A stretch of DNA of 64,000 nt, from NCBI GenBank assembly GCA_949152475.1, contig OX424556.1:868001-932000 (forward strand), given 5' to 3'. This stretch comes from Terebella lapidaria. Its lineage: Eukaryota > Annelida > Polychaeta > Terebellida > Terebellidae. A model generated the notes under the pieces. The model had not been told where the DNA came from. It saw only the letters and a program-made list of their open reading frames with translations, and ran no database searches. The position numbers were made by a program, and so were the translations under genes. This document shows, piece by piece, positions 1,614 through 60,655 of this stretch (within the stretch, counting starts at the first letter, position 1; every line of letters begins with the position of its first letter).

Positions 1614-3683
1614 CAGTAGTAGTAGTAGTATTTATTGACATTTACAAAATTGTATACTTTTGCGGGATGAAATATCAATATCAAAATATGTCCAATTAAT
1701 AAACGCGTTCATAATTATAGTTCATATACTCCAAGTTCACGTTGTCCATCAAACACTCCGTTCAAAGAAGGTTAACACCTGAAAGCATAACTCTGCAGCC
1801 ACCTTGGCGTCTAACGAAAACAGTTCGTTTAAATTTGATAATGTTTTTGGCAGCTGGCCTCTGAGATGATCAGTCAATTTACACTCTAACAGAACGTGTT
1901 GTTCAGTCTGAATAGCTTCGCCACATTCACACAATCTCTGTTCCCTAGGGGTGCGTGTCCAACGGCCGGATTCGATTTTCAATCGGTGTGATGCGAGTCG
2001 TAGCCTGCTGCAGTAGGTTCTGTGGTGTTCCGGTATGTGGGTTTCTAGATTCTTGTATATAGGACTGGGGGTCAAGTCATTGTTTATTTCCAGATATGTA
2101 GCTCTTCTAGTTGTACCACAGGCTCTTACTGCGGTTTTCAAATGGTTCAGGTGAGACTCAGTATGGTTAATCGCGTTGTGCTTTAGGTGATTGATTACAT
2201 TGCCCATCTTAGAATGTGTTGTTATGGCCAATTGGATTAAGTCCTTGACGTAAAAGTCTCCTGCTCGTTGTTGAATTTTCTGCAAAAATTTCACCTGGCG
2301 GTCCTTGATTGAAGCTTTGGCGTCACCCACACCCAGTTCTAGAAGGACAACATCAGTACACGTAGTCAGCCTTACACCCAACAGCTGTTTAAGTGTAGAT
2401 AAGTAGGGTTTATCAAGTTGTTTCAGATTCTTCGTAAACCAAGTCTCTGCACCGTAAAAAATAGCTGACATCAGGGCGCTGGTCCAAACGTTGAATTTTA
2501 TTGGGAAAGGGCAGTCGCTGTTCTTTGATAGGAATGACGTAAATTTATGTACATGACCGTTTTTCAATACAAGTTGTTCGGCGATTTGATCATTCATGTC
2601 CCTATTTGAGATTGGTACTCCAAGATATATATAACTGTCCGTGTGCTCAATGGTTAGGTCTTTTACCTTGAAAGGATCATTGTTTTGGGAATTTACTGAA
2701 ACAAATTTGGTTTTTCCAGGATGTATTACCATATCAATCTCTGAGGCGCTCTCCTCAAGGAGTTGAAGTTTCTGTAACATGGTGTCTCGACAGGATGACA
2801 GGAGAACAGTGTCATCCATAAATAATAGGATATGGTTGCCTCCCAACCAACCGTCGTCGCCGACTGTTTTCACTCGTTCCACGGTGTGATCAATATAAAA
2901 GGTGAAGGCATTGCAGCTGGTAGAACTGCCTTGCTTAACCCCTCTGGCTGTGCTGAAGTGGTGTTCTCCTATTGCTCCCTCAGACTGCAACGCTTTTGCA
3001 AAAGCTTTCAAGAAAACTGTCCCACATCCTTTATCGTCCATACGTTTCAGGAGCTTAGTGCGATTCACCCTGTCATAGGCTTTTTCATAGTCAATGAACA
3101 TAATATATAGACTATTCCGAGTCTTTTTTGCAATGTCAATGAGAAGCCGTAACGCCAAAATCTGCTCTTCGCAATTCCGACCCTTTTGTGCTCCAGCTTG
3201 TTCCACGTGTGGTATGTACCAGCTGTTGAAGCGTGTACTTAAAATTTTGTCGTATATTTTGGCTATAGCGGATAATATACTAATTCCACGATAATTTGAC
3301 GGCTTTGATTTATCACTCTTCTTGAAGATGGTGAAGACTTTGGATAGCTTCCACATGTGTGGATAGTCTCTGTGGAAAATAATATTGAAAGTATAGGTGA
3401 GCAATAGTAACCATTCATCTGGCATGTACTTGAAAACACCAGGGGGTATGTTATCGGGTCCTGCTGCTTTTGAACTCTTCAGAGAGGCGATACTATCAAC
3501 TACTTCGCCTACTTGAATTGGGTCGTCCAGTACTGGTATGTACTTGAATTGTACATTGTCGAGTAGGTTGTCATCTTGACCCAACTGTGGCTCCAGTTTT
3601 AACAGTTTCTGGAAATGTTCACAAAACTCCTCGTCTGTCGGTCCCTTGCTCCCTCGATCTGGAATGCTCAGTTCGCCTTTGTT
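1614..3683 (-). mobile_element. 5'-truncated LINE inserted in the satellite
   Basis: A non-LTR retrotransposon lies in minus orientation with the same 24-bp satellite on both sides. Its 3' end is at 1614, marked by five copies of a TAC triplet in place of a poly-A tail, a short-repeat tail as seen in several LINE clades. Its 5' end is the junction with the satellite near 3683, where the reading frame is still open, so the missing part is a normal 5' truncation. No clear target-site duplication is visible, which is hard to judge inside a repeat. The long intact frame suggests a fairly young insertion. Confidence 0.9.
1749..3683 (-). CDS. LINE ORF2 C-terminal part: reverse transcriptase
   Basis: This is the reverse transcriptase of the LINE and copies element RNA into DNA at the target site. 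The frame runs without a stop from the truncation point at 3683 to a stop at 1749; an in-frame TTG at 3584 is not a real start. Numbering from that TTG, RT motif A is FIDYEKAYD (about 163-171), motif B is GVKQGSSTS (about 215-223) and the catalytic motif C is FMDD (about 255-258), where most LINEs have YADD. Near the C-terminus a cluster CxCx7Hx4C resembles the zinc-binding tail of some LINE ORF2 proteins. The endonuclease is absent because of the 5' truncation. I cannot assign the clade by eye. Confidence 0.9.
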   Translation of the reverse strand, partial: NKGELSIPDRGSKGPTDEEFCEHFQKLLKLEPQLGQDDNLLDNVQFKYIPVLDDPIQVGEVVDSIASLKSSKAAGPDNIPPGVFKYMPDEWLLLLTYTFNIIFHRDYPHMWKLSKVFTIFKKSDKSKPSNYRGISILSAIAKIYDKILSTRFNSWYIPHVEQAGAQKGRNCEEQILALRLLIDIAKKTRNSLYIMFIDYEKAYDRVNRTKLLKRMDDKGCGTVFLKAFAKALQSEGAIGEHHFSTARGVKQGSSTSCNAFTFYIDHTVERVKTVGDDGWLGGNHILLFMDDTVLLSSCRDTMLQKLQLLEESASEIDMVIHPGKTKFVSVNSQNNDPFKVKDLTIEHTDSYIYLGVPISNRDMNDQIAEQLVLKNGHVHKFTSFLSKNSDCPFPIKFNVWTSALMSAIFYGAETWFTKNLKQLDKPYLSTLKQLLGVRLTTCTDVVLLELGVGDAKASIKDRQVKFLQKIQQRAGDFYVKDLIQLAITTHSKMGNVINHLKHNAINHTESHLNHLKTAVRACGTTRRATYLEINNDLTPSPIYKNLETHIPEHHRTYCSRLRLASHRLKIESGRWTRTPREQRLCECGEAIQTEQHVLLECKLTDHLRGQLPKTLSNLNELFSLDAKVAAELCFQVLTFFERSV

Positions 3684-3801
3684 GATAAGACTTCACTACG
3701 ACCAATGATAAGGCTTCAATACCGACCAATGATAAGGCTTCAATACCGACCAATGATAAGGCTTCACTACCGACCAATGATAAGGCTTCACTACCGACCA
3801 A
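3684..3801. repeat. 24-bp minisatellite array, right part
   Basis: Five copies of the same 24-bp unit as at 1-1613, directly beyond the LINE 5' junction. This shows the array was continuous before the insertion. The last copy runs into unrelated sequence at about 3802. Confidence 0.93.
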
Positions 3802-3814
3802 TATACCGCTAAGT

Positions 3815-20910: not shown

Positions 20911-23900
20911 ATGATGCGAGAGTCTCGTTTACTGGGTCGTGCAGGATGTCGGTGTTTGCAGACAATGTGGCGTGGGGCACGATCGTCTGCGGCCTCTGTA
21001 GATCTGACTTTATCGACTGGGGCTAGCAGACGGATCACAGAGCCTGTCGCCATGACGAGGGAACAGCTTCAAACTACATACAGGGAGCCAAGTCAACTGA
21101 CCAGGGACAGAACTCATCAAAAGAAAGATACTTTATATCCTTCATCCGCTGAAAAATGGATACCTCACAAGCAAAGCAAGGTCCCAAAGTTCAGAAGGTA
21201 TGGAATCCTTCAAGTTTGATTGTATCAGTCAAGGAAACTCCCAAACATATGTAAGCTGGTGGCGTGAGGTCAATATATCATACAGTGTCAAACAGCATGT
21301 AGAGCAGACTTCCTGAAATATACCAGGCTTAATTAAATCAACTCAATCAGACTGTGTCATACAGAGGACATCATGTCCTACATGTTGAATGTTTATCAGA
21401 TTCACACCTTTTGCTAGTACCATAGATTAGAGAAGTGTGAGTGAGGAATACTCCATATACGTGTGCTAGTTCATGTCCCAACATTTGTCTGCCAATAGGA
21501 AAACAGTGAAGATGCCGAGTGTGGAAGTCCAGGGCGAAGTTCTGTATGGAAAGTTTCCAGTACTGATGGCTCTCAAGGCAGAGAGACGAGAAGTCTACAA
21601 ACTTTACGTCAAGGAGACGATGTTCCACAGCGCAGGCAGCCCTGGCATCATGGCCGAACTCGTGGCATACTGCAAGCAGCGCAAGATCGCAGTCGAGGCC
21701 GTGAGCCAAAACTTCCTGAGTGGCCTGGTTCTGGATCCGGTCCAAGGGCTTCGACAACACCAGGTCAGGAGATAACTTGTGAACACACAGACATCAGGTG
21801 TGCTCCTTACCAGGCCATCGTTACCTCTGTATTGTGTTCCTTGCAGGGCATCTGCGCCGATGTTTCCCCCAAACCATACATGGATTTTGTGGATTTAGAC
21901 GATAGGTGAGCACTTGTGTCTATGATCATGTGTATGTGTGTGTCAAGGAGCAAGAGTTGCGCCGATGTTTCCCCCAAACCATACATGGATTTTGTGGATT
22001 TAGACGATAGGTGAGCACTTGTGTCTAAGATCATGTGTATGTGTGTGTCAAGGAGCAAGAGTTGCGCCGATGTTTCCCCCAAACCATACATGGATTTTGT
22101 GGATTTAGACGATAGGTGAGCACTTGTGTCTAAGATCATGTGTATGTGTGTGTCAAGGAGCAAGAGTTGCGCCGATGTTTCCCCCAAACCATACATGGAT
22201 TTTGTGGATTTAGACGATAGGTGAGCACTTGTGTCTAAGATCATGTGTATGTGTGTGTCAAGGAGCAAGAGTTGCGCCGATGTTTCCCCCAAACCATACA
22301 TGGATTTTGTGGATTTAGACGATAGGTGAGCACTTGTGTCTAAGATCATGTGTATGTGTGTGTCAAGGAGCAAGAGTTGCGCCGATGTTTCCCCCAAACC
22401 ATACATGGATTTTGTGGATTTAGACGATAGGTGAGCACTTGTGTCTAAGATCATGTGTATGTGTGTGTCAAGGAGCAAGAGTTGCGCCGATGTTTCCCCC
22501 AAACCATACATGGATTTTGTGGATTTAGACGATAGGTGAGCACTTGTGTCTAAGATCATGTGTATGTGTGTGTCAAGGAGCAAGAGTTGCGCCGATGTTT
22601 CCCCCAAACCATACATGGATTTTGTGGATTTAGACGATAGGTGAGCACTTGTGTCTAAGATCATGTGTATGTGTGTGTCAAGGAGCAAGAGTTTTCCTTG
22701 TTGAAGTGACAGATGTTGTGGTGTCTGGAGACTTGTGTGTTACCCTCTTGCAGAGAGTCCGACTCTAACAGACCCAAGCTGTGGCTGCTGGTTCAGTCTG
22801 TGCAGGTCAGTCAGTGTCAGTGGTATTCATCTCTTTGTTTTGTCTGCGTTTTTGGATCTTTGGTGAATCCAAGGTCATCTCTGTGTATCGAGTAATCTGA
22901 CGCCTCATTGTCTTTTCAGGATCCAAACAATTTTGGTGCAGTATTGAGGACTGCCCATTACCTTGGGTTGGACAAAATAATTGCACACAATAGGTGAGAC
23001 TGGTATGCGGAATACTCTCGTGACTTTGAATTTGATCAGTGACCTTATTTTCAAGGCCACGGAACAAAATAGCTATTATATATTGTCTGGTAACCTATCT
23101 TAGCCCTTGGGCTAATTTTTTATTTTTGGTGGGACGACATTTCATACATATGCAAATGAAAATAAATTTGATTTATTGATTGATTGAAATCAAGCCTTAA
23201 GAATTGAAATCATGTGTAACACATGATTTTAATGACTTCATTCCTAGAGGCTTGATTTATTTGGGCTTGAAACCTCTTGGCCGGGCACCTTGGCACTACT
23301 GCCTGGTGTGCCATCTTCCTAGCAGTCAGCACAGACAGGATGATTCTGTGTACTAGTAGTACACAGAATCGGAAAATGGAAAATGCCGACTCGGCAAAAA
23401 AAATTCGGGTCAGTGTCAAAATTCATCCATAATACCCCTTAGACATGTTTGTCTAGGTCGACGAGTCCGTTTCTCTCTATGACGCACCATTCCCGAGATA
23501 TCGACGAAAACGAAAAATCCCGACTTGGCGAAAAAATTTCGGGTCGAGGTCAAAGTTGATCCATAGTACCCCCCAGACATGTTTGTCTAGGTCGACGAGT
23601 CCAAAAATAAAGTCTGTTTCGCTCTACGACGCACTGTTTCCGAGATATCGACGAAAACGAAAAAATGCAGACTCGGCAAAAAAATTTCGGGTCAAGGTCA
23701 AAGTTCATCCATAATACCCTCTAGACATGTTTGTCTAGGTCGACGAGTCCAAAAATAACGTCCGTTTCGCTCTACGACACACCGTTTCCGAGATATCGAT
23801 GAGAAGGAAAAATGCCGACTCGGCAAAAAAATTTCGGGTCAAGGTCAAAGTTCATCCATCATACCCCCAGGCATGTTTGTCTAGGTCGACTGGTCCAAAA

Positions 23901-26900: not shown

Positions 26901-29053
26901 CGTCTAGAATCTGAATGATTTTGTAATGTTTATTTGTTCAGTTGTAAGCTGTCACCTGCTGTCAGTAAAGTCAGTGCTGGGGCACTAGAACTAATTGATG
27001 TGTACCAGGTCATCAACTTACCGGACTTCCTTCAGGTCAGAAGATTCTATTATTCCACCAACACAGGTCAGTGAACTTGTGTATATATGGCGGCCCAGTG
27101 TGCAGACTGCGGTTCTTGTTGCAGGCTTGTCGTAGTACGGACTGGCAGATTTTGGGCACGGCTAGTATGAGAGAACCATCAGACTCCACTGTCAATCTGC
27201 AGGAAGTCAGCGTTCACAAAAACACTGTGGTAGTCCTCGGTGAGCTGAGCGGGAGATCATCACCTGTGACGGAATGTTGTCATTTTGTTCATTGAATCAT
27301 GTCTGTGTGTGTTTGGCAGGTAATGAGGGCTCCGGTCTTAGAAAGGAGACCAGCAACTTGTGTGATCAGCTGATCATTGTGGGTCGGGACCAGCGGCGCA
27401 CTGAGCCAGGAAACATGCTGCTTGACTCCCTCAATGTCTCCGTGGCAACAGGTATGATCATTGTAGGTCGGGACTAGCAGCACACTGAGCCAGGAAACAT
27501 GCTGCTTGACTCCCTCAATGTCTCCGTGGCAACAGGTATGATCATTGTAGGTCGGGACCAGCAGCACACTGAGCCAGGAAACATGCTGCTTGACTCCCTC
27601 AATGTCTCCGTGGCAACAGGTATGATCATTGTAGGTTGGGACCAGCAGCACACTGAGCCAGAAAACATGCTGCTTGACTCCCTCAATGTCTCCGTGGCAA
27701 CAGGTATGATCATTGTAGGTCGGGACCAGAAGCACACTGAGCCAGAAAACATGCTGCTTGACTCCCTCAATGTCTCCGTGGCAACAGGTATGATCATTGT
27801 AGGTCGGGACCAGCAGCACACTGAGCCAGAAAACATGCTGCTTGACTCCCTCAATGTCTCCGTGGCAACAGGTATGATCATTGTAGGTCGGGACCAGCAG
27901 CGCACTGAGCCAGAAAACATGCTGCTTGACTCCCTCAATGTCTCCGTGGCAACAGGTATGATCATTGTAGGTTGGGACCAGCAGCACACTGAGCCAGAAA
28001 ACATGCTGCTTGACTCCCTCAATGTCTCCGTGGCAACAGGTATGATCATTGTAGGTCGGGACCAGCAGCACACTGAGCCAGAAAACATGCTGCTTGACTC
28101 CCTCAATGTCTCCGTGGCAACAGGTATGATCATTGTAGGTCGGGACCAGCAGCGCACTGAGCCAGACAACATGCTGCTTGACTCCCTCAATGTCTCCGTG
28201 GCAAAGGTATGATCATTGTAGGTCGGGACCAGCAGCGCACTGAGCCAGAAAACATGCTGCTTGACTCCATCAATGTCTACGTGGCAACAGGTATGATCAT
28301 TGTAGGTCGGGACCAGCAGCGCACTGAGCCAGAAAACATGCTGCTTGACTCCCTCAATGTCTCCGTGGCAACAGGTATGATCATTGTAGGTCGGGACCAG
28401 CAGCGCACTGAGCCAGACAACATGCTGCTTGACTCCCTCAATGTCTCCGTGGCAACAGGTATGATCATTGTAGGTCGGGACTAGCAGCGCACTGAGCCAG
28501 AAAACATGCGGCTTGACTCCCTCAATGTCTCCGTGGCAACAGGTATGATCATTGTAGGTCGGGACTAGCAGCGCACTGAGCCAGAAAACATGCGGCTTGA
28601 CTCCCTCAATGTCTCCGTGGCAACAGGTATGATCATTGTAGGTCGGGACCAGCAGCGCACTGAGCCAGAAAGCATGCTGCTTGACTCCCTCAATGTCTCC
28701 GTGGCAACAGGTATGATCATTGTAGGTCGGGACTAGCAGCGCACTGAGCCAGAAAGCATGCTGCTTGACTCCCTCAATGTCTCCGTGGCAACAGGTATGA
28801 TCATTGTAGGTCGGGACTAGCAGCGCACTGAGCCAGAAAGCATGCTGCTCGACTCCCTCAATGTCTCCGTGGCAACAGGTAACCATGGCTGTCCAGGTCT
28901 TCTCCACAATACTGTCAGATATTGTGTCTTGATTTGAAATTCAGTCCTTTGTTCCTAAACACTATTAAGCATACATTCAAATGAATCATGTTTATATTTT
29001 CAGGAATAATTCTGCATGACCTGAGCAACAAAAGGAACTCTCTGGACTCTTGA
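20911..29053 (+). CDS. MRM1: Mitochondrial rRNA 2'-O-ribose methyltransferase MRM1 (nine exons)
   Basis: SPOUT-class enzyme that methylates a guanosine 2'-OH in the large mitochondrial rRNA, using SAM (family knowledge: Gm1145 in human, RlmB in bacteria). Exons: 20911-21197, 21499-21763, 21847-21905, 22754-22805, 22920-22993, 26942-27035, 27125-27239, 27320-27451, 29004-29053. They total 1128 nt, or 375 aa plus stop (human about 353), and every junction is GT-AG and in phase. The first residues are Arg-rich with no acid stretch, as in a mitochondrial presequence. The RNA-binding subdomain (GEVLYGKFPVLMAL, from about 108) lies in exon 2. SPOUT motif 1 NNFGAVLR is at 224-231, motif 2 GNEGSGLR at 316-323 and motif 3 SLNVSVATG at 352-360, with catalytic-site N354. 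Exons 3 and 8 each begin a tandem array that copies their donor. The 3.9-kb intron 5 is full of mobile elements. Confidence 0.95.
21853..22692 (+). repeat. 105-bp x 8 array spanning the MRM1 exon 3 donor
   Basis: Each 105-bp unit holds the last 53 bp of exon 3 (from TGCGCCGATGTTTCC to GACGATAG) plus the first 52 bp of intron 3, including the donor GTGAGC. Donors lie at 21906, 22011, 22116, 22221, 22326, 22431, 22536 and 22641. Copies are almost identical. The extra copies lack the original acceptor (CTTGCAG before 21847), so they give repeated donors rather than repeated exons. Reading past the first donor meets TGA at once. The long minus-strand ORF over the array is an artefact. Confidence 0.95.
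22994..23115 (+). mobile_element. P2-family 3' end in MRM1 intron 5
   Basis: Part of one core unit (GAATACTCTCGTGACTTTGA onward) followed by CTGGTAACCTATC and the hairpin TTAGCCCTTGGGCTAA (23100-23115). It is followed at 23140-23195 by an AATAAATTTGATTTATTGAT tail typical of a retroposon 3' end. Confidence 0.75.
23390..24890 (-). mobile_element. P1-family element, core and head, minus orientation, in MRM1 intron 5
   Basis: From 23390 to about 24200 there are about five core units of roughly 146-148 bp, with CGACGAGTCCAAAAATAACG, TTTCGCTCTACGACGCACCG and AGACATGTTTGTCTAGGTC. From about 24200 to 24480, and again to about 24890, come two copies of the head sequence, the reverse complement of 30050-30330: AATCAATAGGGTTCTTCCCT, GATTTCATCCTCACGGACCT. 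The palindromic end itself is not seen. The unit sequence differs strongly from the core at 30310-33600 but keeps its length and landmarks. Confidence 0.8.
24890..26454 (-). mobile_element. P2-family element: nine-unit core and 5' end, in MRM1 intron 5
   Basis: About nine tandem units of roughly 130 bp (TTCCTATATGTCCACAATTG, CTGTAAAGTCGATAATAAGC, GAGATATTAGCCATTTTGTC, CTTGAAAATGAGGTCAAAGG). Then come the AAAATGGCGGCCACATG block, a GACGGACGACG tract and the 5' palindrome ending GGTCCGGTAACCT at 26454. Most units carry an AGGTCAAAGGTCA site and flanking TCAAGGTCA sites. Confidence 0.85.
26545..26590 (+). mobile_element. Decayed P1-type 3' tail
   Basis: AGAAATGCCTCCAAGGCATA, then TATAGACCTTGACGTTAATT, matches the P1 tail at 33708-33745 with several changes. 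No core or head is attached. The sequence between it and the P2 end at 26454 is not recognised. Confidence 0.5.
27371..28880 (+). repeat. 84-bp x 18 array spanning the MRM1 exon 8 donor
   Basis: The unit is the last 81 bp of exon 8 (from TGATCATTG to GCAACAG, coding for motif 3) plus GTA, the first 3 bases of the intron. Joining GTA to the next TGATC makes a donor-like GTATGATC at each junction. There is one exonic copy and 17 intronic ones, with donors from 27452 to 28879. Nearly all are 84 bp; one is 83 bp (near 28205). The last copy is followed by GTAACCATGG, probably the ancestral donor. The exon frame continues into the array as 28-codon repeats but meets TAG at 27475-27477 in the first intronic copy, so only the first donor gives full-length protein. 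Confidence 0.95.
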
Positions 29054-29142
29054 TCTTCAGCGAGACTTGCCTTCGTTATAATCTTATATGATGTATTCTC
29101 TAGTTCACTTTTATGAGCTGTATTAATGTTCTTGATATGACA

Positions 29143-29256
29143 ATGAATAAACAGATCAAATGTCATTTCTGTGTTATGTAATGAATAAATAGATCAAATG
29201 TCATTTCTGTGTTATGTAATGAATAAATAGATCAAATGTCATTTCCGTGTTATGTA
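29143..29256 (+). promoter_or_regulatory. Triplicated polyadenylation-signal region of MRM1
   Basis: Three tandem copies of a 38-bp unit (ATGAATAAATAGATCAAATG, then TCATTTCTGTGTTATGTA) begin at 29143, 29181 and 29219, 90 bp after the MRM1 stop. Each contains AATAAA (29146, 29184, 29222) and a following GT/T-rich stretch as expected for 3' processing. It is very likely the MRM1 polyadenylation region. Confidence 0.8.
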
Positions 29257-29454
29257 CTGACCAGTCACCATGGGTACATTTACTGCACTAGGTTCAATGT
29301 CAACTTCCAATCATTTCCCAGGAGAAAAATCAGCTTTTGTTGCAAGGTAGAAAATAGAAACTTCAAACTTCCACATTTCTTGTAAAATGTTGAATATATT
29401 CATTATCAACAAATTAAACCTTTGCAACCTGACATTCTGTTCCAACATGTTTTT

Positions 29455-38143: not shown

Positions 38144-38369
38144 AAAAATGTGGACGACGGACGCAACGCCATGCCAATAGGTTATCGGACCATAGGTCCG
38201 GTAACCTGAAAAACCTTTCCTGGAAATTTTTAGGTATTTTTGTGCAAAATTTCAGCAATATTCCATCGTAAACTTTAAAGATAAAAATGTGAACGGAAGG
38301 ACGGACGACGGACGGACGACGGACGCAACGCCATGCCAATAGGTTATCGGACTATAGGTCCGGTAACCT
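38144..38369 (-). mobile_element. Two further P2 5' ends in tandem
   Basis: Two more copies of the 5' end lie head to tail: one of about 64 bp ending at 38207, and one of about 160 bp ending at 38369 that includes the TTTTTGTGCAAAATTTCAGC block and the GGACGGACG tract. With the ends at 37188 and 38143, four 5' ends lie in the same orientation within 1.2 kb. Confidence 0.8.
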
Positions 38370-38372
38370 AAA

Positions 38373-41300
38373 ATTCCGCTACCGTAGGGAGAGGGGGATG
38401 GCGTGGATAAACTTGCCGTCGATTTCACCATGAAGAGAAGACTTTCCACTTGGCTTGATACAGGCGCTCGGAGGATGACCGAACTGTTCTGGACATCCGT
38501 CTGGCAGCGTTCTTCGAAAAACCAGCCTTTCTGAAAGAACGCCGAATAATGGAGATTGAAGGACGTCGAGATGCTTGTGGAACTGACGTCCCTGACGAAG
38601 AAGACTGGGGATCGGTGGCAACGACCACGGAAGATCCACCAGAAGAACCAGAAGCTCCGGGAACCAGGGCTTGACCGGCCAATTGGGAGCCACTAGGATG
38701 ATCTGAGCCGTGCTTGATCGAATCCTCTGCAGAACCATTGGAATCAGGGAGAACGGTGGAAAAGCGTGCGCCCAAAGGGTGGACCAATCCTGAGCGAGCG
38801 CGTCGGCTGCCCAGGCATGAGGGTCCGGGAACAGCGACACATAGAGCGGCAGACGATTGTTCTGTAACGTGGCGAACAGGTCCAAGTGAGGCTGAACCCA
38901 AAGATGCCACAGGTGACTGCAGATCTGGGGGTTCAGAGACTGGTTCGAGGAGACCTGAGCCCTCCGAGAGAGGGCGTCGGCGATGGTGTTCAGGGAGCCC
39001 AGGATGTGACGGGCCAGAAGACTGACATCCTGCGACTCTGCCCACTTTAAAATCTTCCGAGTCAAGTAGCTTAGCTCCCTTGACGGTGTCCCCCCCCCCC
39101 CCCCCCCTGGTTCTTGATATAGCCGACGACCGTTGTGTTGTTGGTCATGGCCAGGACTGTGGACCTGGCAACCATCTGTTGAAAATGGCGCAGACCCAAC
39201 CAAACCTTTTTGGGTCTGCGCCATTTTCAACAGAAGGTTGCCGGGTCCACAGTCCTGGCCAATTGATGTGATGGCCAATTGATGTGATAGCGAGGATCGG
39301 CGGCCGACCAGAGACCGGAGACTTGACTTTCGCCGAAGTGAGCACCCCAACCGAGGCGAGAAGCATAAAAAAACAGGAGAAAGTCGGGCTCCAGCTCATG
39401 AATAGGATGACCCCGCAGCAGGTTGATGGGGTCGGACTATCAAAGGAGATCTGGCTGAAGCGCTGAGACCACCGGAACCAGAGTCGACAGGTCTTGCTCG
39501 GAATCCCAGTGATCCCGGAGATGAAACTGGATCATCCGCAGACGGGCGCCAGGGAGGATCTTCTCCAGCGACACCATGTGACCCAGGAGCTATAGAAAGA
39601 CTACCACCGTGTTGGGGACCCCGATGGAGAAACACCGTAGAACACTCAAACTCAAACGCTGAATACGATCCGCCGTCGGTCGGGTCAGGAGGGACTGCGT
39701 GTCGATGTCAATCCCGAGGTAGGTAACATGCTGGGCGGGAACCAAGTTGGACTTCTTGAAATTGATCACAAGGCCGACCCGCTGGCAAAGCTGAACAATC
39801 ATCTCTGTGTGAGAAGCCACCGTCTGCTAATCTGCGGCCGTAATCAGCCAATCGTCCAGAGACCTCATTAGGCAAATGCTCCTGCGATGAGCCCAGGCCG
39901 ACACCGGCTGAAAAACCCGGGTGAACAGGTACGGGGCGGTAGAGAGGCCGAAACACAGAGAGCGGAACTGGTACACCACGTTGGATGTGAAAATACGCAT
40001 CCTTCAGATCTATGGAAGTCATCCAGTCCCAGCTGTGGAGAGACAGGAGGACAGTCCGTGGGCACTCCATGGATAAACTCTCCTTGGAGACGAACTTGTT
40101 CAGAGGACTGAGGTCGATGATCGGTCGCCAGCCGCCCGTGAGCTTCGGGACGACGAACAGATGACTATAGAAGCCTGGAGAGCTCTGAGTCACTTGCTCC
40201 GTGGCTTGCTTGAGGAGCATCTCAGACACGAGGGCATCCAAGACAGCAAACTTCTCCGATCCTGGAGCGTAGGATGTGAACGTGATCGGGAGGGGAGAGA
40301 GGGGCGGCGCCTGACTGAAGGGAATCCGGTACCTGTGACGCAGTGTGGCAGTTACTAGGGTGTCCCTGAATTCTGTATCCCAGGCTGACCAAAAGGCCTT
40401 GGAGACAACTCCCACGGGGGATACATCCAAAGCTTGGTTCCCTGGGAGCGTCTGGGACACATCAGGAGCGGGGCTGAGGCTTGGCAGAAGACGAGGATCC
40501 ACTGCCGCCGCAACCTCCACGTGAAGAGTTCGACGACTTCTTATTCTTGTCGAACTTGCCGCCCTTGGAGAACTGTGAAGACTGCTGCTGCTTGATCCAC
40601 AGGCTTGACCTTCGGGATCTTGAAGGAGGAGGAGGAAGACGCCGTTGGCTTCTTCTCCTGATGCTCGACCAGCTTGACTAGGTTGAATTTGCTGAGCAGG
40701 TCCGCTTCCTGGGCAACTGTCTGGCCAGCCTTGGCCAAGATGTCTGGGTCAAAACGATGCGGTCCAAAGACTGAAGACGTGCGCAGCTTCGACTTGAAAG
40801 CATCGGACAACTTGGAAGTAGACCTCTTGAGGTAAGCGTCCCGGCACCTCAGAGCCACATTAGCCCACTCTACATGAGATTCCTTCGTGATCTGGCCCAC
40901 GCACTTGTTCACGGAGGAGAGGGTCCTCTTCATCCGGAGAAGCTCTGCTACCGGTATCTGGACGGTGGCGTCAGAGTCGAGGTCAGCGTCCGCTGGAGTC
41001 GAACCGGGTGCCAGACGGTCGACCTGGTAGCTGAGAAGACCCGAGAGCCAGTCGAGGGAGTTAGCCACCAGCTGAACCCGGCGCGGGTAGGACTCCCAAG
41101 TCTTGAGATCCGAGTCTGACAGGGTAGCGGTAACACTCGAGGACTTGAGCCCAGGGGCGATGACCGAGAGATCCTCGTTCCTCGCCACTGCCTCCAGAGT
41201 GGCAGTCTGATAGACCGGGATCTGAGGTCTGATAGTATTTAAAGCTGCTGCCTTCGAATGTAAGCAATTTTTTTTCAAAACTATTTTTTTGTTAAACACA

Positions 41301-43440
41301 TCTAATGCAATATAAAAAAGGTGTGCTCAATGATTTTGACGATTACAGTTCGTCCGAGTTGTCTTTTCATCCGTTTTAGTGCCCATTTTGTACCGGTTTT
41401 GTAAATAAACAAACGAAGTGTATCCATCAAACCCGAATGTAAACAAATGCTCAAATTGCGCTTAAAAGTCCACATCGAGTACATTTTCCAGTTCGTATCT
41501 GCAAATATTGTGTAGTTGTGAGAAAATAATCAGTGATATTCCATGATTTGCATGGAATTGTCAGTCTATCTCGCACTTCTATGCTTTGTTTACATCTGCG
41601 TGTGATGAATACAGTTCCTGTATTTACACGAGAACCGCCTGTTCAAATGAGCAATATTTCCCTGAGGACTGGTTATTTTCATTACACTTGATGTGTAGTA
41701 TGTTTCATTCACTTGGTTTAGCATGTTTAATATGAAATATAGTTTTCAAAAAATATTGACTGGTTTCGAAGTCAGCTGCTTTAAGCTGTCCTTGAGAACA
41801 CGAGGCAAACTTCCCGGCTCGTAGGGGCTGGCCGTTCACAGGGGCGATCTCATCCTCCACCAGAGAGCGCACGGACGAGATGCCCTTGGACCGAGGAAAA
41901 CGCACATCCAGCTCAGGCTGCTGATGGGAGTGTAGAACTCGATCTCCCACAGAAGTACAGCTGGTTTCCTTCACCGCTGGAATCTGGATCAAGTCGGGGC
42001 AGGCCTCCTGGACCCAGAGACGCACCTGGGAGAAAGTGTCCTTATCTGACTTGGAGGTAGAAGGCTTGGAGGTGGCGGCCGTAGCCGAGGTATCCGCCGA
42101 CCTAGCTGGACTGGAAACCCTCGGTTTCTTGGCTGGAGGCTCGTCCAGGGCCTGATCCGCCAGGGGGGGGGGGGGGGGGGAGGCAGAGAGACTGGAGGCT
42201 CCGGAGCAGAGACGGGGGTAGTCACAGACAAATGTGTCGGTAGTAATAGTCCCTATCCTCACGGGAAGAAAGGCCGGAACAGTAATAACTGTCCAACTCT
42301 TCATGGTAGTAACGGTCAAAGTCATAATCACGACGTTGATCATACACCCAATCACGGAAACGATCAGCACGGCTGGAGGAAGGACGGTCCCAGTCACCCC
42401 CGGAGGAACACTAACAGCAGTGGCTGATGACCCGCAGTGAGAATCAGAGCTGGAGGCAGACGAACTGCGGTCTGAAGACTGACGGTCGGCCGGTGGCTGG
42501 TCGGGGGGTAGAACACTGGGCTGAGAGACCCGCGGGCTGGCCACCACTGGCTGCTGATCACGGTAGCGTGAACACCCACGAGGCACTCCAGCGGCCGGAG
42601 AAGAAGAAGCCTGGGCAGTAGAGGCGTCACGGTGCTGAACACGGTCCGGGCTACCACCGAGAGACTTGTCCACTACTACAACATCGACAGGGCCGTCGGA
42701 GAGCTGCACGGTGGCGTAGTCGGGTGGGCCAGACTTAGCGCGGCCAACGGGGCCCCTGCCTTCACCAAACTGATCACCCGAGACCGACTCGCTGGTCCCG
42801 GCAGCCTGAGAATAGGAATCCGCCGTCGACGCATCAGCTGCCTCAGAGAAGATCGGGTCGAGAGACGGTAAACCCCAGGAACACGAATGCTCGGCAGGGC
42901 TGTTGTGCGGGGCGTTGCCGCCGACGAACGGGTCACAAGAGATTAGCGGGTCCGGCACTTCATCTACCATGGGGGTGGCCGGGGTAGCAACTCCTCTTCC
43001 AACCAGAGGAAACCTGGGATTCCAGGGAATCGAGACTGATTGCTGATCAGCAGAACGAGACCGCTTCTTCTCCCTATCAATCCGACGTTGATCGATCAGG
43101 TCGAATCTATCATCAGCCAAGATTCACAAATCTTGCATCACTGAGACGAACAGCAAACGAACGGCCTGCAAGAAGGACAACGATCGTGTGGGTCGACATC
43201 CAGAGGAACCAAAAAGTGTCCACACTTGGAACATCTCCTAACAGATGACGACTCCATTGTACAAACAGCAAAGGTCCAAACTTCAAACTTCAAAGGCAAT
43301 CGCTAGCGACGCAGTGTTGTCGTTGACAGGAGCTCGCCAAAAACGAAAGTGAACTGGGAGGCAGTGGACTGGCACGATCATGCTACCACACGGAGGGTGA
43401 ACTGCTCAGGTAACTACCATTACTAGCGCAGGGTTTAAAC
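38373..43440 (-). mobile_element. DIRS-like tyrosine-recombinase retroelement fossil
   Basis: The base composition is GC-rich and unlike its surroundings. From high to low coordinates there is a gag-like Ser/Pro-rich region (about 43120-41705 and 41299-40541), reverse transcriptase (about 40350-39590, with GGWRPIIDLSPLNKFV and SIDLKDAYFHIQ), an RNase H/methylase-like region (about 39350-38600, with NTIADALSR and PHLDLFA) and the start of a recombinase-type domain (about 38560-38400). These signatures and their order point to the DIRS order. An AT-rich stretch of about 0.5 kb lies between the two gag-like parts. The copy is broken, with several breaks, and its 3' side meets the P2 end at 38369. 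It is not expected to be active. Confidence 0.85.
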
Positions 43441-45704: not shown

Positions 45705-48700
45705 TCACTTCTTGAATAAGTGCAGCTTGGACTGATGGTAGTGTGGATGGCATCTCTGCCCTGTGAATGACGTCTCTGTACTGTGGATGGCGTCTCTGTC
45801 CCGTGGATGGCGTCTCTGCCCTGTGGATGACGTCTCTGTCCCGTGGATGGCGTCTCTGTCCTGTGGATGGCGTCTCTGTCCTGTGGATGGCGTCTCTGTC
45901 CCGTGGATGGCGTCTCTGCCCTGTGGATGGCGTCTCTGTCTTGTGGATGGCGTCTCTGCCCTGTGAATAGGGTCTCTGTCCTGTGGATGGCGTCTCTCTC
46001 CCGTGGATGGCGTCTCTGTCCCGTGGATGGCGTCTCTGTCCTGTGGATAGCGTCTCTGCCCTGTGGATGGCGTCACTGCCCTGTGGATGGCGTCTCTGCT
46101 GTGGATGGCGTCTCTGTCTTGTGGATGGCGTCTCTGTCCTGTGGATGGTGTCTCTCTCCCGTGGATGGCGTCTCTGCCCTGTGGATGGCGTCTCTGTCCT
46201 GTGGATGGCGTCTCTGCTGTGGATGGCGTCTCTGTCCTGTGGATGGCGTCTCTGTCCAGTGGATGGCGTCTCTGTCCTGTGGATGGTGTCTCTCTCCCGT
46301 GGATGGCGTCTCTGCCCTGTGGATGGCGTCTCTGTCCTGTGGATGGTGTCTCTGTTCTGTGGATGGCGTCTCTGTCCTGTGGATGGTGTCTCTGTTCTGT
46401 GGATGGCGTCTCTGTTCTGTGGATGGCGTCTCTGTCCTGTGGATGGTGTCTCTGTTCTGTGGATGGCGTCTCTGTCCTGTGGATGGCGTCTCTGTTCTGT
46501 GGATGGCATCTCTGTCCTGTGGATGGTGTCTCTGTCCTGTGGATGGCGTCTCTGTTCTGTGGATGGCATCTCTGTCCTGTGGATGGCGTCTCTGTTCTGT
46601 GGATGGCGTCTCTGTCCTGTGGATGGTGTCTCTGTTCTGTGGATGGTGTCTCTGTCCTGTGGATGGCGTCTCTGTTCTGTGGATGGCATCTCTGTTCTGT
46701 GGATGGTGTCTCTGTCCTGTGGATGGCGTCTCTGTTCTGTGGATGGCATCTCTGTCCTGTGGATGGTGTCTCTGTTCTGTGGATAATGTCTCTGTTCTGT
46801 GGATAATGTCTCTGTTCACATTTGCCAGCCCAGCAAAGATTGCTTTCCGCACATTCATCTCCCTGAATTCAACTCAATGTTTATCTCTCTGCGTGGGAAG
46901 TTTTCACCCCTCCAAACTCAAGGATTTGTCTGTCAGGACTATCAGCCCAATCTTCCAACTTCAACTGCAACAGGAAGTCAATATATGCTTCAATGATAGT
47001 ATTTGAACACTCCACGAAATGACTTGATGATTGAGTTGCTCCTGTACCCCACCTTCCTGTCTTTGCTTCTCTGCGCCTGCTTCATCTCCCAGTGGACTTG
47101 CTTCTGTTGTGCTTCTAGCTCAGCAGGGCTTCCACATCCCCACACCTACAACACATATTAAAAACTTACAACATCCTCTAACTTACTTGTATTAGATGGT
47201 CTGTCACTTGTGCCAGGAGGTACCACCACTTGTACTAGACTTGTACCAGGAAGTACTGTCACTTGTACCAGGAGGTTCTGTCACTTGTACCAGGAGGTAC
47301 CACCACTTGTACCTGGAGGTACTGTCACTTGCACCAGGAGGTACTGTCACTTGTACCAGGAGGTTCTGTCACTTGTACCAGGAGGTACCACCACTTGTAC
47401 CTGGAGTTACCACCATTTCTACAAGGAAGTACTGTCACTTGTACCAGGAAGTACCACCACTTGTACCAGGAGGTACTGTCACTTGTACCAGGAGGTACCA
47501 CCACTTGTACCAGGAGGTACTGTCACTTGTACCAGGAAGTACTGTCACTTGTCCCAGGAGGTACTGTCACTTGTACCAGGAGGTACTGTCACTTGTACCA
47601 GGAGGTACCACTACTTGTACCAGGAGGTACTGTCACTTGTACCAGGAGGTACTGTCACTTGTACCAGGAGGTACTGTCACTTGTACCAGGAGGTACTGTC
47701 ACTTGTACCAGGAGGTAATGTCACTTGTACCAGGAGGTACTGTCACTTGTACGAGGAGGTACTGTCACTTGTACCAGGAGGTACTGTCACTTGTACCAGG
47801 AGGTACTGTCACTTGTACCAGGAGGTACCACCAATTGTACTAGACTTGTACCAGGAGGTACTGTCACTTGTACCAGGAGGTACTGTCACTTGTACCAGGA
47901 GGTACTGTCACTTGTACCAGGAGGTACTGTCACTTGTACCAGGAGGTACCACCAATTGTACTAGACTTGTACCAGGAGGTACTGTCACTTGTACCAGGAG
48001 GTACTGTCACTTGTACCAGGAGGTACTGTCACTTGTACCAGGCGGTACCACCAATTGTACTAGACTTGTACCAGGAGGCACTCTCATTTGTATCAGGAGG
48101 TACTATCACTTCTACCAGGAGGTACCACCACTTGTACCTGGAGGTACCACCACTTGTACTAGACTTGTACCATGAGGTACTGTCACTTGTACCAGGAGGT
48201 ACCACCACTTGTACCAGGAGGTACTGTCATTTGTACCAGGAGGTACTGTCACTTGTACCAGGAGGTACTGTCACTTGTACTAGGAGGTACTGTCACTTGT
48301 ACCAGGAGGTACTGTCATTTGTATCAGGAGGTACCACCACTTGTACCAGGAGGTACTGTCACTTGTACCAGGAGGTTCTGTCACTTGTACCAGGAGGTAC
48401 CACCACTTGCACCATGAGGTACCGTCACTTGTACCATTAGGTACCGTCACTTGTACCAGGAGGTACCACCACCTGTATCATGAGGTACCACCACTTGTAT
48501 CATGAGGTATCATGAGCAGCAGATATTATTCCCACCTGGATTCTATCCAAGTCCAGCTGGATGCCATAATGTTTGACAGTGGAGAATTCCTCATCGATCT
48601 GCAGGACAGTAGTACGGGGATCCTTTCCGACTTTGAGACCTTTAGGTGCTGTTCTGTCCTCTGTGTTGAAGTAGAGCATGTCTGTTCCAGCTGTAGACGG

Positions 48701-51700: not shown

Positions 51701-54700
51701 GCTTCTCATTTCATGTATACCTTGTACAACAAAGGAATAAAAAACAGCTAATTAGCATTGATCACTGAAGCACCTGTATTTCAAAATGGGAAGACCTTAT
51801 CTGCTGCATAACATGTGTATTTGCTGAATTATCTACTGAGTGTGTTCACTATCTACTGATTGTGTTTGCTATCTACTGATTGTGTTTACTATCTACTGAT
51901 TGTGTTCACTATCTACTGATTGTGTTTACTATCTACTGAGTGTGTTTACTATCTACTGAGTGTGTTCACTATCTGCTGAGTGTGTTCACTATCTACTGAG
52001 TGTGTTTGCTATCTACTGAGTGTGTTCACTATCTACTGATTGTGTTTGCTATCTACTGAGTGTGTTTACTATATACTGAGTGTGTTTGCTATCTGCTGAG
52101 TGTGTTCACTATCTACTGATTGTGTTTACTATCTACTGAGTGTGCTTGCTATCTGCTGAGTGTGTTCACTATCTACTGAGTGTGCTTGCTATCTGCTGAG
52201 TGTGTTCACTATCTACTGAGTGTGTTTGCTATCTACTGAGTGTGTTCACTATCTACTGAGTGTGTTTACTATCTACTGAGGGTGTTCACTATCTACTGAG
52301 TGTGTTTACTATATACTGAGTGTGTTTGCTATCTGCTGAGTGTGTTTACTATCTACTGAGTGTGTTTTCTATCTACTGAGAGTGTTTGCTATCTACTGAG
52401 AGTGTTTGCTATCTACTGAGTGTGTTCACTATCTACTGAGTGTGTTTGCTATCTACTGAGTGTGTTTGCTATCTACTGAGTGTGTTTGCTATCTACTGAG
52501 TTTGTTTGCTATCTACTGAGTGTGTTTACTATATACTGAGTGTGTTTTCTAAGTACTGAGTGTGTTCACTATCTACTGAGTGTGTTTTCTACCTACTGAG
52601 AGTGTTTGCTATCTACTGAGAGTGTTTGCTATCTACTGAGTGTGTTCACTATCTACTGAGTGTGTTTGCTATCTACTGAGTGTGTTTGCTATCTACTGAG
52701 TTTGTTTGCTATCTACTGAGTGTGTTTACTATATACTGAGTGTGTTTTCTAAGTACTGAGTGTGTTCACTATCTACTGAGTGTGTTTACTATCTACTGAG
52801 TGTGTTTGCTATCTACTGAGTGTGTTTACTATCTACTGAGTGTGTTTGCTATCTACTGAGTGTGTTTGCTATCTACTGAGTGTGTTTACTATATACTGAG
52901 TGTGTTTGCTATCTACTGAGTGTGTTCACTATCTACTGAGTGTGTTTACTATATACTGAGTGTGTTTGCTATCTACTGAGTGTGTTTACTATATACTGAG
53001 TGTGTTTGCTATCTACTGGGTGTGTTTACTATATACTGAGTGTGTTTGCTATCTACTGAGTGTGTTCACTATCTACTGAGTGTGCTTACTATCTACTGAG
53101 TGTGTTTGCTATCTACTGAGTGTGTTTACTATATACTGAGTGTGTTTTCTAAGTACTGAGTGTGTTCACTATCTACTGAGTGTGTTTACTATCTACTGAG
53201 TGTGTTTGCTATCTACTGAGTGTGTTTACTATCTACTGAGTGTGTTTGCTATCTACTGAGTGTGTTTGCTATCTACTGAGTGTGTTTACTATATACTGAG
53301 TGTGTTTGCTATCTACTGAGTGTGTTCACTATCTACTGAGTGTGTTTACTATATACTGAGTGTGTTTGCTATCTACTGAGTGTGTTTACTATATACTGAG
53401 TGTGTTTGCTATCTACTGAGTGTGTTTGCTATCTACTGGGTGTGTTTACTATATACTGAGTGTGTTTGCTATCTACTGAGTGTGTTCACTATCTACTGAG
53501 TGTGTTTGCTATCTACTGAGTGTGTTTGCTATCTACTGAGTGTGTTTGCTATCTTCTGATTGTGTTCACTATCTACTGATTGTGTTTACTATCTACTGAG
53601 TGTGTTTGCTATCTACTGAGTGTGTTTGCTATCTTCTGATTGTGTTCACTATCTACTGAGTGTGTTTGCTATCTACTGAGTGTGTTTACTATATACTGAG
53701 TGTGTTTGCTATCTACTGAGTGTGTTTGCTATCTACTGAGTGTGTTTGCTATCTACTGAGTGTGTTTACTATATACTGAGTGTGTTTGCTATTTACTGAG
53801 TGTGTTTACTATCTACTGAGTGTGTTTTCTATCTACTGCGTGTGTTTACTATCTACTGAATGTGTTTGCTATCTACTGAGTGTGCTTACAATATACTGAG
53901 TGTGCTTGCTATCTACTGAGTGTGCTAACTCTATACTGAGTGTGTTTGCTATCTACTGCGTGTGTTTGATATCTACTGAGTGTGTATACTATCTTCTGAG
54001 TTTGTTTACTATATACTGAGTGTGTTTTCTATCTACTGAGTGTGCTTACAATGTACTGAGTGTGCTTGCTATCTACTGAGTATGTTTTCTATCTACTGAG
54101 TGTGTTAGCTATCTACTGAGTGTGCTAACTCTATACTGAGTGTGTTTGCTATCTACTGAGTGTGTTTACTATCTACTGAGTGTGTTTACTATCTACTGAG
54201 TGTGTTTGCTATCTACTAAGTATGTTTACTATATGCTGAGTGTGCTATCTGCTGAGTACATGTATAATTACTATCTACTGAGTGTGTTTGCTGCCTGCTG
54301 GGTGTGTTTACTATCTGCTCGGTGTGTTTGCTATCTACTGGGTGTGTTTACTTGTTGATGAACATTGAGGAGACGAACACTGGTGTCTGGTGTAAATTTG
54401 CATCCAAAACTCGCACAATTTGCGTAATACATTGACATCCTAAACTGTTATATACATATAACTAATATATCTTTACCTTGAATTGTTTCTTATCCAACCC
54501 AAGTGAAGTAGAGGCATGGTGCTGCAAAACATCATGATGAGCAAGAGGTTAATGATGTTGTGAACAGATCTAGTGGTAAAACAAATACATCCATTGAAAC
54601 TCTGAATTATTCATAATACAGAGACCTACTGTAAAGATTCCAGGTACCTGACCCCCCCCCGCCCCCTCCCCCTCCCTTCCCCCACAAGTTACTTTACCTG

Positions 54701-54884
54701 ATAGACCTTCTGGAAGGACACCTCCAGTCGTGTGTCGGTACCTGACTCCCCCCCCCCCCCTCCCTTCCCCCACAAGTTACTTTACCTGATAGACCTTCTG
54801 GAAGGACACCTCCAGTCGTGTGTCGGTTGCGTTAGGTTCCTCTTTCTTGGAACCAATGTCCTCCTTCTCTTGAGAGTTACCCAT
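45705..54884 (-). CDS. MEAK7/EAK-7-like TLDc-domain protein (eleven exons)
   Basis: Exons in order: 54884-54786, 54521-54477, 51659-51443, 51094-50964, 50888-50715, 49886-49816, 49741-49646, 49509-49436, 48690-48536, 47145-47053, 45731-45705. They total 1182 nt, or 393 aa plus stop; all junctions are GT-AG and in phase. The start MGNSQEK is an N-myristoylation signal, as in MEAK7, which suggests a membrane-attached cytosolic protein. Residues 34-165 are helical and EF-hand-like in style (GLDKKQFKDLF). The TLDc domain covers about 205-360: WSLLYDSN (231-238), GLSVN, APTVCFVYF, CLGCDREW, RWGGFDCFLLQILP, YFNTEDRTAPKGL and VWGCG (355-359). Vertebrate MEAK7 acts in an alternative mTOR pathway at lysosomes; that role here is inference. 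Least certain are the acceptors of exons 4 and 5 and the short last exon: reading through its upstream donor would give a different tail. Confidence 0.88.
45752..46812. repeat. 20-bp minisatellite in the last intron of the TLDc gene
   Basis: About 53 copies of a 20-bp unit (GTCTCTGTCCTGTGGATGGC) with simple variants. In the gene's sense each unit contains CCATCCACAG followed by G, a weak acceptor-like string, and the array ends about 20 bp from the acceptor of the last exon. Long ORFs on both strands are artefacts. Confidence 0.95.
47195..48515. repeat. 22-bp minisatellite in intron 9 of the TLDc gene
   Basis: About 60 copies of a 22-bp unit (GTCACTTGTACCAGGAGGTA plus CT), mixed with a variant in which ACTGT is replaced by CCACC. 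It fills the intron between exons 9 and 10, starting about 20 bp from the exon 9 donor. The unit does not match the neighbouring exons. Confidence 0.95.
49839..50036 (-). repeat. 69-bp x 3 array spanning the exon 6 acceptor of the TLDc gene
   Basis: Copies at 49839-49907 (the real exon), 49908-49967 (shortened to 60 bp) and 49968-50036, plus a partial copy up to about 50055. In the gene's sense each holds the acceptor TTCTGTGTACACAG and the first part of exon 6 (TGTGTCCTGAGAGGTGAAGG). Only the copy nearest exon 7 goes on to WSLLYDSN and a donor. Confidence 0.92.
50070..50660 (+). mobile_element. P2-type fragments in intron 5 of the TLDc gene
   Basis: Internal P2 blocks (AATGGCCGTCACACGCAGAC, GGCTGTTTTGACCTTTAAAT, CACCATATATGACTTCCCAT) without either terminus. 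The copy is diverged. Confidence 0.7.
51834..54345. repeat. 20-bp minisatellite, about 125 copies, in intron 2 of the TLDc gene
   Basis: The unit TGTGTTTGCTATCTACTGAG, with variants TTTACT, TTCACT, TATATACT and GATTG, occupies 2.5 kb. Variant order shows higher-order structure: the rare unit TGTGTTTTCTAAGTACTGAG recurs at 52541, 52741 and 53141. The block after 52741 is repeated almost unit by unit 400 bp later. Both edges decay into degenerate units. Confidence 0.96.
54650..54830 (-). repeat. Duplicated exon 1 end and donor of the TLDc gene
   Basis: The last 41 bp of exon 1 (from CCGACACACGACTGGAGG to CTATCAG), the donor GTAAAGTAAC and a following G-rich tract are repeated 88 bp downstream in the intron. 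The second donor lies at 54695-54696 on the minus strand. Each copy ends in a poly-G stretch and GTCAGGTACC. Confidence 0.93.
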
Positions 54885-60439: not shown

Positions 60440-60655
60440 GATGCTGAGTCGGTTGCTCAGTGGTAGAGCGCTCGCCTCATAAATGAGTGGTCCTGGGTTC
60501 AATCCCAAGTCTCGCTCCCTGGTGAATGTAGCACCTGATATTTTGTCCCTCGGCCCGGAGAGGACATTAAACTTGGTGCTGGGTGAGTATTATGGTTGCT
60601 GCACCGGGATTCTCAGCAGTGGTGATGGGGAAGCTGACAGATGTACCTGATCTGC
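60440..60655 (+). mobile_element. tRNA-derived SINE
   Basis: The head has an A box (GGTTGCTCAGTGGTAGAGC) and a B box (GGGTTCAATCCC) with a tRNA-like D arm and a CTCATAA anticodon-type loop. It is followed by a body of about 140 bp (CACCTGATATTTTGTCCCTC, CGGAGAGGACATTAAACTTG). No clear A-rich tail is seen, and a P3 element starts at 60661. A free-standing tRNA gene is less likely, because the acceptor and T stems do not pair fully. Confidence 0.65.

Follow-up and report, generated by a model that had tools for sequence, protein, structure and literature searches.

Minisatellite-like tandem repeats that run across exon-intron boundaries have been described in amphioxus, where they were named mirages after work on Adh3 (PMC3087553). 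Many mirage units carry AG/GT signals, the arrays vary in length and are somatically unstable, and the repeats turn over within a cluster to the exclusion of the boundary copies (PMC3087553). The globins BflGb6 and BflGb9 (PMC3087553) and Adh and TnC are among the lancelet cases, and in lancelet PGBD5 repeats of 60 bp and 108 bp abut 5' splice sites (PMC3902484). Here we analyse a comparable locus in the annelid Terebella lapidaria, in a 64,000-nucleotide stretch of contig OX424556.1 (assembly GCA_949152475.1, positions 868,001 to 932,000 of the forward strand; GC content 42.9%). This whole stretch is called the window, and all positions are counted from its first letter. In the window, an 84-bp minisatellite of 18 copies repeats the end of coding exon 8 of a methyltransferase gene together with its splice donor. 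We consider it probable that this array is a mirage, a nearly neutral passenger without a function of its own, and that the spliceosome uses the first donor.

Tandem Repeats Finder places a tandem array at 27371-28881, with a period of 84, 18.0 copies and 97% matches. Together with a copy-by-copy reading, this bears out the coordinates, the copy number and the unit given in the original prediction, which had been made from the letters of the window. The unit equals the final 81 bp of exon 8 plus the first three bases of the intron, GTA; copy 1 is formed by exon 8 at 27371-27451 and GTA at 27452-27454. The spacing is 84 bp throughout the 18 copies, except for copy 10 (start 28127), which is 83 bp long owing to a 1-bp deletion. 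The register of the unit is fixed, because the bases just outside the array mismatch the unit on both sides. With a mean pairwise identity of 96.5% among the 18 copies, the array is no chance match. The features on which the argument turns are the following.

27371..28881, forward strand: 84-bp minisatellite, 18 copies (copy 10 of 83 bp), from Tandem Repeats Finder and copy-by-copy reading
27452..27457, forward strand: first donor, GTATGA, the sole one of 18 that gives the full-length protein
27475..27477, forward strand: TAG lying in frame within copy 2, where the products of donors 2-18 stop
27536..28800, forward strand: 16 further GTATGA donors, copies 2-17
28879..28884, forward strand: donor GTAACC after the last copy, the probable donor before duplication
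27363..27376, no strand assigned: 14-bp perfect palindrome TGATCAGCTGATCA; the array begins one base beyond its centre

AG/GT stands at the end of all 18 copies, as CAG/GTATGA at 16 joints, AAG/GTATGA at one (copy 10, 28207) and CAG/GTAACC after copy 18 (28879). Junctions 1-17 carry the regenerated GTATGA donors described in the original prediction, and GTAACC follows the last copy, likewise as described there. The acceptor of intron 8, TTTTCAG at 28997-29003, is unique and lies outside the array, and all later copies precede it. The palindrome at the left breakpoint is a single case and proves nothing. Microhomology was considered as the origin of the array and rejected, as none exists at the joint (flanking bases C versus A and A versus T).

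Set beside the amphioxus mirages, the array likewise spans an exon-intron boundary (81 bp of exon and 3 bp of intron) and carries AG/GT signals in its units. It is also homogenized internally: the 18 copies comprise 14 unit types, the farther apart two copies lie the less alike they are (Mantel r 0.55, 0/5000 permutations), and at unit positions 11 and 25 copy 1 has bases that occur in none of the 17 intronic copies. Turnover thus proceeds inside the array and excludes the boundary copy, as in the amphioxus globin mirage. By these sequence features the array would be classed as a mirage-type minisatellite, a kind already described. Its unit length is comparable with the published ones (10-72 bp in Adh3, 150-160 bp in globin, 60 and 108 bp in PGBD5), whereas its 18 copies exceed the 3 and 6 copies in the two BflGb6 haplotypes and the 2-7 in PGBD5. 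As far as the cited texts go, the locus further differs in that the 84-bp unit holds only 3 intron bases, that two arrays occur in one gene, and that all three arrays described here sit on donors, while BflGb6 copies the acceptor side. The original prediction was right about the anatomy; it missed the described kind to which the array appears to belong and its recurrence nearby, at exon 3 and in a second gene.

The number of copies might be an artefact of assembly, the true array having another length or representing a collapsed or expanded pair of haplotypes. There is precedent for this, in that the repeat number in PGBD5 differs between two versions of the genome sequence (2 versus 7 and 3 versus 6; PMC3902484) and the draft version of BflGb6 was called aberrantly assembled (PMC3087553). 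However, the 14 unit types are ordered by neighbourhood as in a real array, and a real seed array would still be required. We regard such an artefact as unlikely, and it would be compatible with a mirage as the kind of element.

The host gene was modelled from sequence alone. The model consists of nine exons separated by 8 introns, each with GT-AG ends, and encodes 375 amino acids in a single open frame; its coding exons are as follows.

20911..21197, forward strand: MRM1-like coding exon 1, ATG at 20911
21499..21763, forward strand: coding exon 2, substrate-binding domain (Pfam SpoU_sub_bind, residues 111-196)
21847..21905, forward strand: coding exon 3; its final 53 bp begin a 105-bp array
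22754..22805, forward strand: coding exon 4
22920..22993, forward strand: coding exon 5
26942..27035, forward strand: coding exon 6
27125..27239, forward strand: coding exon 7
27320..27451, forward strand: coding exon 8; copy 1 of the 84-bp array takes up its final 81 bp
29004..29053, forward strand: coding exon 9 with the stop; acceptor TTTTCAG at 28997-29003, outside the array

The joined exons match SpoU_methylase with E 3.6e-28 (profile positions 3-142 of 142, protein residues 214-364) and SpoU_sub_bind with E 8e-9, both beyond the Pfam cut-offs. The best of seven solved relatives is PDB entry 1gz0 (E 4.1e-18), deposited as hypothetical tRNA/rRNA methyltransferase YJFH, which we take to be Escherichia coli RlmB. 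Its segment SLNVSVATGI aligns with the repeated segment and the continuation of that segment in exon 9. These matches support assignment of the host gene to the SPOUT/TrmH-type methyltransferases, in line with the proposal of an MRM1-type gene whose catalytic-motif exon is repeated; the name MRM1 is plausible and is assumed here, following the original prediction. Just past the gene, at 29142-29260, a 38-bp unit containing AATAAA is present in 3.1 copies, possibly a triplicated poly(A) signal.

In simulated joins, donor 1 (27452) spliced to 29004 gives the protein of 375 amino acids, and none of the other 17 donors does so, as had been proposed. The scan with SpoU_methylase covered this product, in which the match reaches the final profile position (142/142, residue 364), five residues inside exon 9. 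Donors 2-18, joined to the same acceptor, all stop after 367 amino acids at the TAG of copy 2, which closes read-through just as the original prediction had stated. The array had also been described as mostly in frame: this is true of copies 1-10, beyond which the deletion in copy 10 shifts the frame. Exon 8 measures 132 nt with donor 1 and 216-1559 nt with donors 2-18, and in the latter products the TAG lies 58, 142, and so on up to 1401 nt upstream of the last exon junction. A stop more than 50-55 nt upstream of that junction usually commits a message to nonsense-mediated decay. All 17 products are accordingly predicted substrates of this pathway, that of donor 2 only narrowly.

With a matrix of human donor frequencies, GTATGA scores 8.01, the copy 10 site 7.85 and GTAACC 7.01, compared with 6.96-9.34 for the eight real donors of the gene; the GTATGA donors are thus typical for it. 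Among 513 other GT sites in the gene, 4 score at least as high as GTATGA and 9 at least as high as GTAACC. The extra donors are therefore not weak sites, and position, timing or decay would have to protect the message.

The history of the array can be read in part from its geometry. Tandem duplication of the segment of 81 bp plus GTA necessarily places TGA after GTA, and a copy beginning TGATC placed there turns GTAACC into GTATGA. The present first donor would on this account be a product of the duplication joint, and GTAACC, still present after copy 18, is probably the older donor, which agrees with its designation as ancestral in the original prediction. If copy 1 is assumed to represent the older state, the changes at unit positions 15, 25 and 28 are losses of CpG, while those at 11, 21, 40 and further positions are not. 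The TAG is found in 5 of 17 intronic copies (copy 2 and copies 14, 15, 17 and 18), which fits drift without coding constraint.

De novo gain of an intron by tandem genomic duplication was rejected as an account of the array, because it needs both splice sites in the duplicates and the acceptor before 29004 lies outside the array. The locus shares a duplicated exon segment and an AG/GT joint with intron gain by tandem duplication of AGGT-containing segments (Rogers model; potato RdRp, PMC4974935), but unlike in that model the intron 8 acceptor at 29003 is unique and stands outside the repeats. The effect of the array was thus to lengthen an intron that has an acceptor of its own, not to make a new one.

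The mirage reading would join these observations as follows. A tandem duplication across the exon-intron boundary would have given rise to the minisatellite, which then grew by local turnover of repeats. The spliceosome would use the first donor, which makes the shortest of the 18 possible exons (132 nt), is transcribed first and alone preserves the protein; the other 17 donors would be silent, or their messages would meet the TAG and be removed by nonsense-mediated decay. This reading is supported by two further donor-spanning arrays in the window, in both of which a stop is met within three codons past the first donor. The coordinates of these arrays and of the exon that one of them repeats are as follows.

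21853..22693, forward strand: second donor-spanning array, 105 bp x 8, repeating 53 bp of the end of exon 3 and 52 bp of intron with the donor GTGAGC
54662..54827, reverse strand: third donor-spanning array, 88 bp x 1.9 copies, repeating the end of the first coding exon and the donor GTAAAG of an unnamed gene
54786..54884, reverse strand: first coding exon (MGNSQEKEDIG...) of that gene, deduced from an open frame and splice signals

The 105-bp array is nearly uniform, with a single base of copy 1 setting it apart from the identical copies 2-8, and is probably of more recent origin or under stronger homogenization than the 84-bp one. Past the first donor of exon 3 a TGA is met at once, and all seven later donors lead to a stop after 204 amino acids. 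In the minus-strand gene, a TAA follows at the third codon past the first donor. No Pfam family was found for the first two exons of this gene. The breakpoints of the 88-bp duplication share the 3 bp ACC. An array of 20-22 bp units at 51830-54352 lies within the intron that separates the two exons identified for this gene.

Several points weigh against silent later copies and exclusive use of the first donor. The first GTATGA donor shares its hexamer with 16 later ones, and the 81 bp upstream are almost identical in each case, so that the choice of donor is not explained by sequence alone. The pairing energy with U1 is slightly better for the last donor, GTAACC (-8.0 kcal/mol), than for GTATGA (-7.2 kcal/mol), although the human matrix ranks the two in the opposite order. 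Between equal donors, splicing often prefers the one nearest the intron, which here is the wrong one; the full-length protein requires the one of the 18 that is most distal to the intron, and their flanks are almost equal. SRSF1 favours intron-proximal and hnRNP A1 intron-distal donors, according to a summary in a paper on Dok-7 (PMC5585400). The AG/GT signals of mirages could act as cryptic sites (PMC3087553), and in one annotation of lancelet PGBD5 repeats were treated as exonic, an exon that was left out by the authors of the PGBD5 study as lacking support from complementary DNA (PMC3902484). In human genes within segmental duplications, minisatellites that expanded at exon-intron boundaries likewise come with cryptic splice sites, and 66% of the intron modifications by variable repeats also have transcripts with the repeat in the exon (PMC2812944). 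Such transcripts would speak against silent copies in general; these human repeats differ in having shorter units (30 bp x 4 on average), in being reported for primate-specific paralogs and in mostly having transcripts in which the repeat is kept. The amphioxus data suggest that regular splicing is undisturbed by mirages (PMC3087553, PMC3902484), and that this carries over to the host gene is something we infer. We further infer that the leading candidates for what decides donor choice are exon definition by the upstream acceptor and the advantage of the first-transcribed site.

The competence of the extra donors could also mean that the array acts as a splicing rheostat, in which they capture U1, a fixed share of transcripts enters nonsense-mediated decay, and the amount of enzyme is thereby governed by the number of copies. 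The later donors, at 7.01-8.01 where shown, fall inside the range of the real donors, and each of the 17 products has its premature stop 58 nt or more upstream of the last junction; variation in array length is known from amphioxus (PMC3087553). Against this stands the reported indifference of splicing to published mirages (see above), and we find a rheostat improbable. Slightly less credit still is given to its extension to a length-variable regulator, in which up to 17 competing donors, with germline and somatic changes in array length, would tune the dose of a probably mitochondrial ribosomal RNA methyltransferase between individuals or cells.

The joints themselves, CAG/GT at 17 of 18 and AAG/GT at one, could serve as back-to-back acceptors and donors, so that the array would be removed stepwise by recursive splicing through exons of zero length. 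The final messenger RNA would be the same. However, pyrimidines make up a share of 0.56 ahead of the joint, less than at any of the 8 real acceptors (0.62-0.75), and no such device is necessary for removal of an intron of about 1.55 kb; recursive splicing is given very little credence.

Equally little is given to the use of some array copies as cassette exons, which would yield proteins that contain repeated segments and would be an early stage in the making of new exons. It is through this route that the repeated motif-3 peptides envisaged in the original prediction stay formally open, simple read-through being closed by the TAG. An AG present in the 17 intronic copies of the 84-bp array, and absent from copy 1, opens in-frame pieces of 69 nt; 11 of the 17 pieces have this length and are stop-free, five contain the TAG and one is 68 nt long. 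In the 105-bp array an AG (possible acceptor GTGTGTCAAG) opens in-frame pieces of 63 nt, of which 1, 3 or 7 joined together stay open to the normal stop in simulation. Recruitment of repeats as exons has been proposed as a model (PMC3087553), and the PGBD5 annotation mentioned above is a case in point (PMC3902484). Yet the putative acceptors have pyrimidine shares of 0.50 and 0.44, against the 0.62-0.75 of the real ones, and the insertions would land in conserved domains. A function through RNA structure was rejected, since the region 27320-27640, which holds the first copies only, does not fold with unusual stability (z 0.88; 84/100 shuffles fold at least as well).

On the favoured reading of a mirage with a working first donor, the array is ordinary as a kind and valuable as a test of splice-site choice. 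Seventeen donors share one hexamer and almost the same 81 upstream bases, and differ mainly by position. If the first donor is still used, exon definition by the distance to the upstream acceptor, or the order of transcription, must decide, as donor strength and nearby enhancers hardly can. A long-standing question could thus be read from ordinary RNA sequencing of one gene, with the 105-bp x 8 array in the same transcript as an independent replicate. The array is also an example of an intron lengthened by copies of its own exon.

We also considered whether the repeat process targets splice sites, and found no support for this. Fifty Tandem Repeats Finder rows were reduced by hand to 24 arrays by merging overlapping rows, leaving aside 3683-3802 and about twelve of the shortest arrays; the 24 cover 18,985 of the 64,000 bases, or 29.7% of the window. 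The MRM1-like gene contributes 8 identified donors and the minus-strand gene 2; three of these 10 lie in arrays, no excess over this coverage (chance of at least 3, 0.61). All 9 identified acceptors lie outside the arrays (chance 0.04 before correction, with two such comparisons made), which is at most a hint. Outside arrays, strong donor-like sites have a density of 1.20 per kb on one strand and 0.84 per kb on the other, so that about 4 are expected over 1,888 bp of unit sequence; 3 of the 24 arrays, namely the three donor-spanning ones, have one in every copy, where the raw count for the 84-bp array is 17 of 18 copies since the last site crosses the array end.

No paper joining MRM1 with mirage, minisatellite, amphioxus or Branchiostoma was found, the broader searches being judged among the matches listed, which is no proof of absence. 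Repeat strings from the window were not found in the paper texts searched. No related sequence turned up in phages or viral contigs (the latter by an exact 32-base pattern), collections that are hardly able to tell.

Elsewhere in the window, a weak transfer RNA match at 60446-60514 (forward strand; Rfam 31 bits, E 0.017; not found by ARAGORN) is possibly a tRNA-derived repeat. Together with the intronic array at 51830-54352, large arrays of 20-22 bp units occupy 45742-46815 and 47206-48509 (about 126, 54 and 58 copies, respectively). A run of long open frames at 38255-43123 on the minus strand, with one weak, sub-threshold reverse transcriptase match (E 0.0039), is probably another retroelement, in addition to the 647-codon frame at 1752-3692 on the minus strand, which matches RVT_1 with E 2e-29 and marks a retroelement between two 24-bp arrays.
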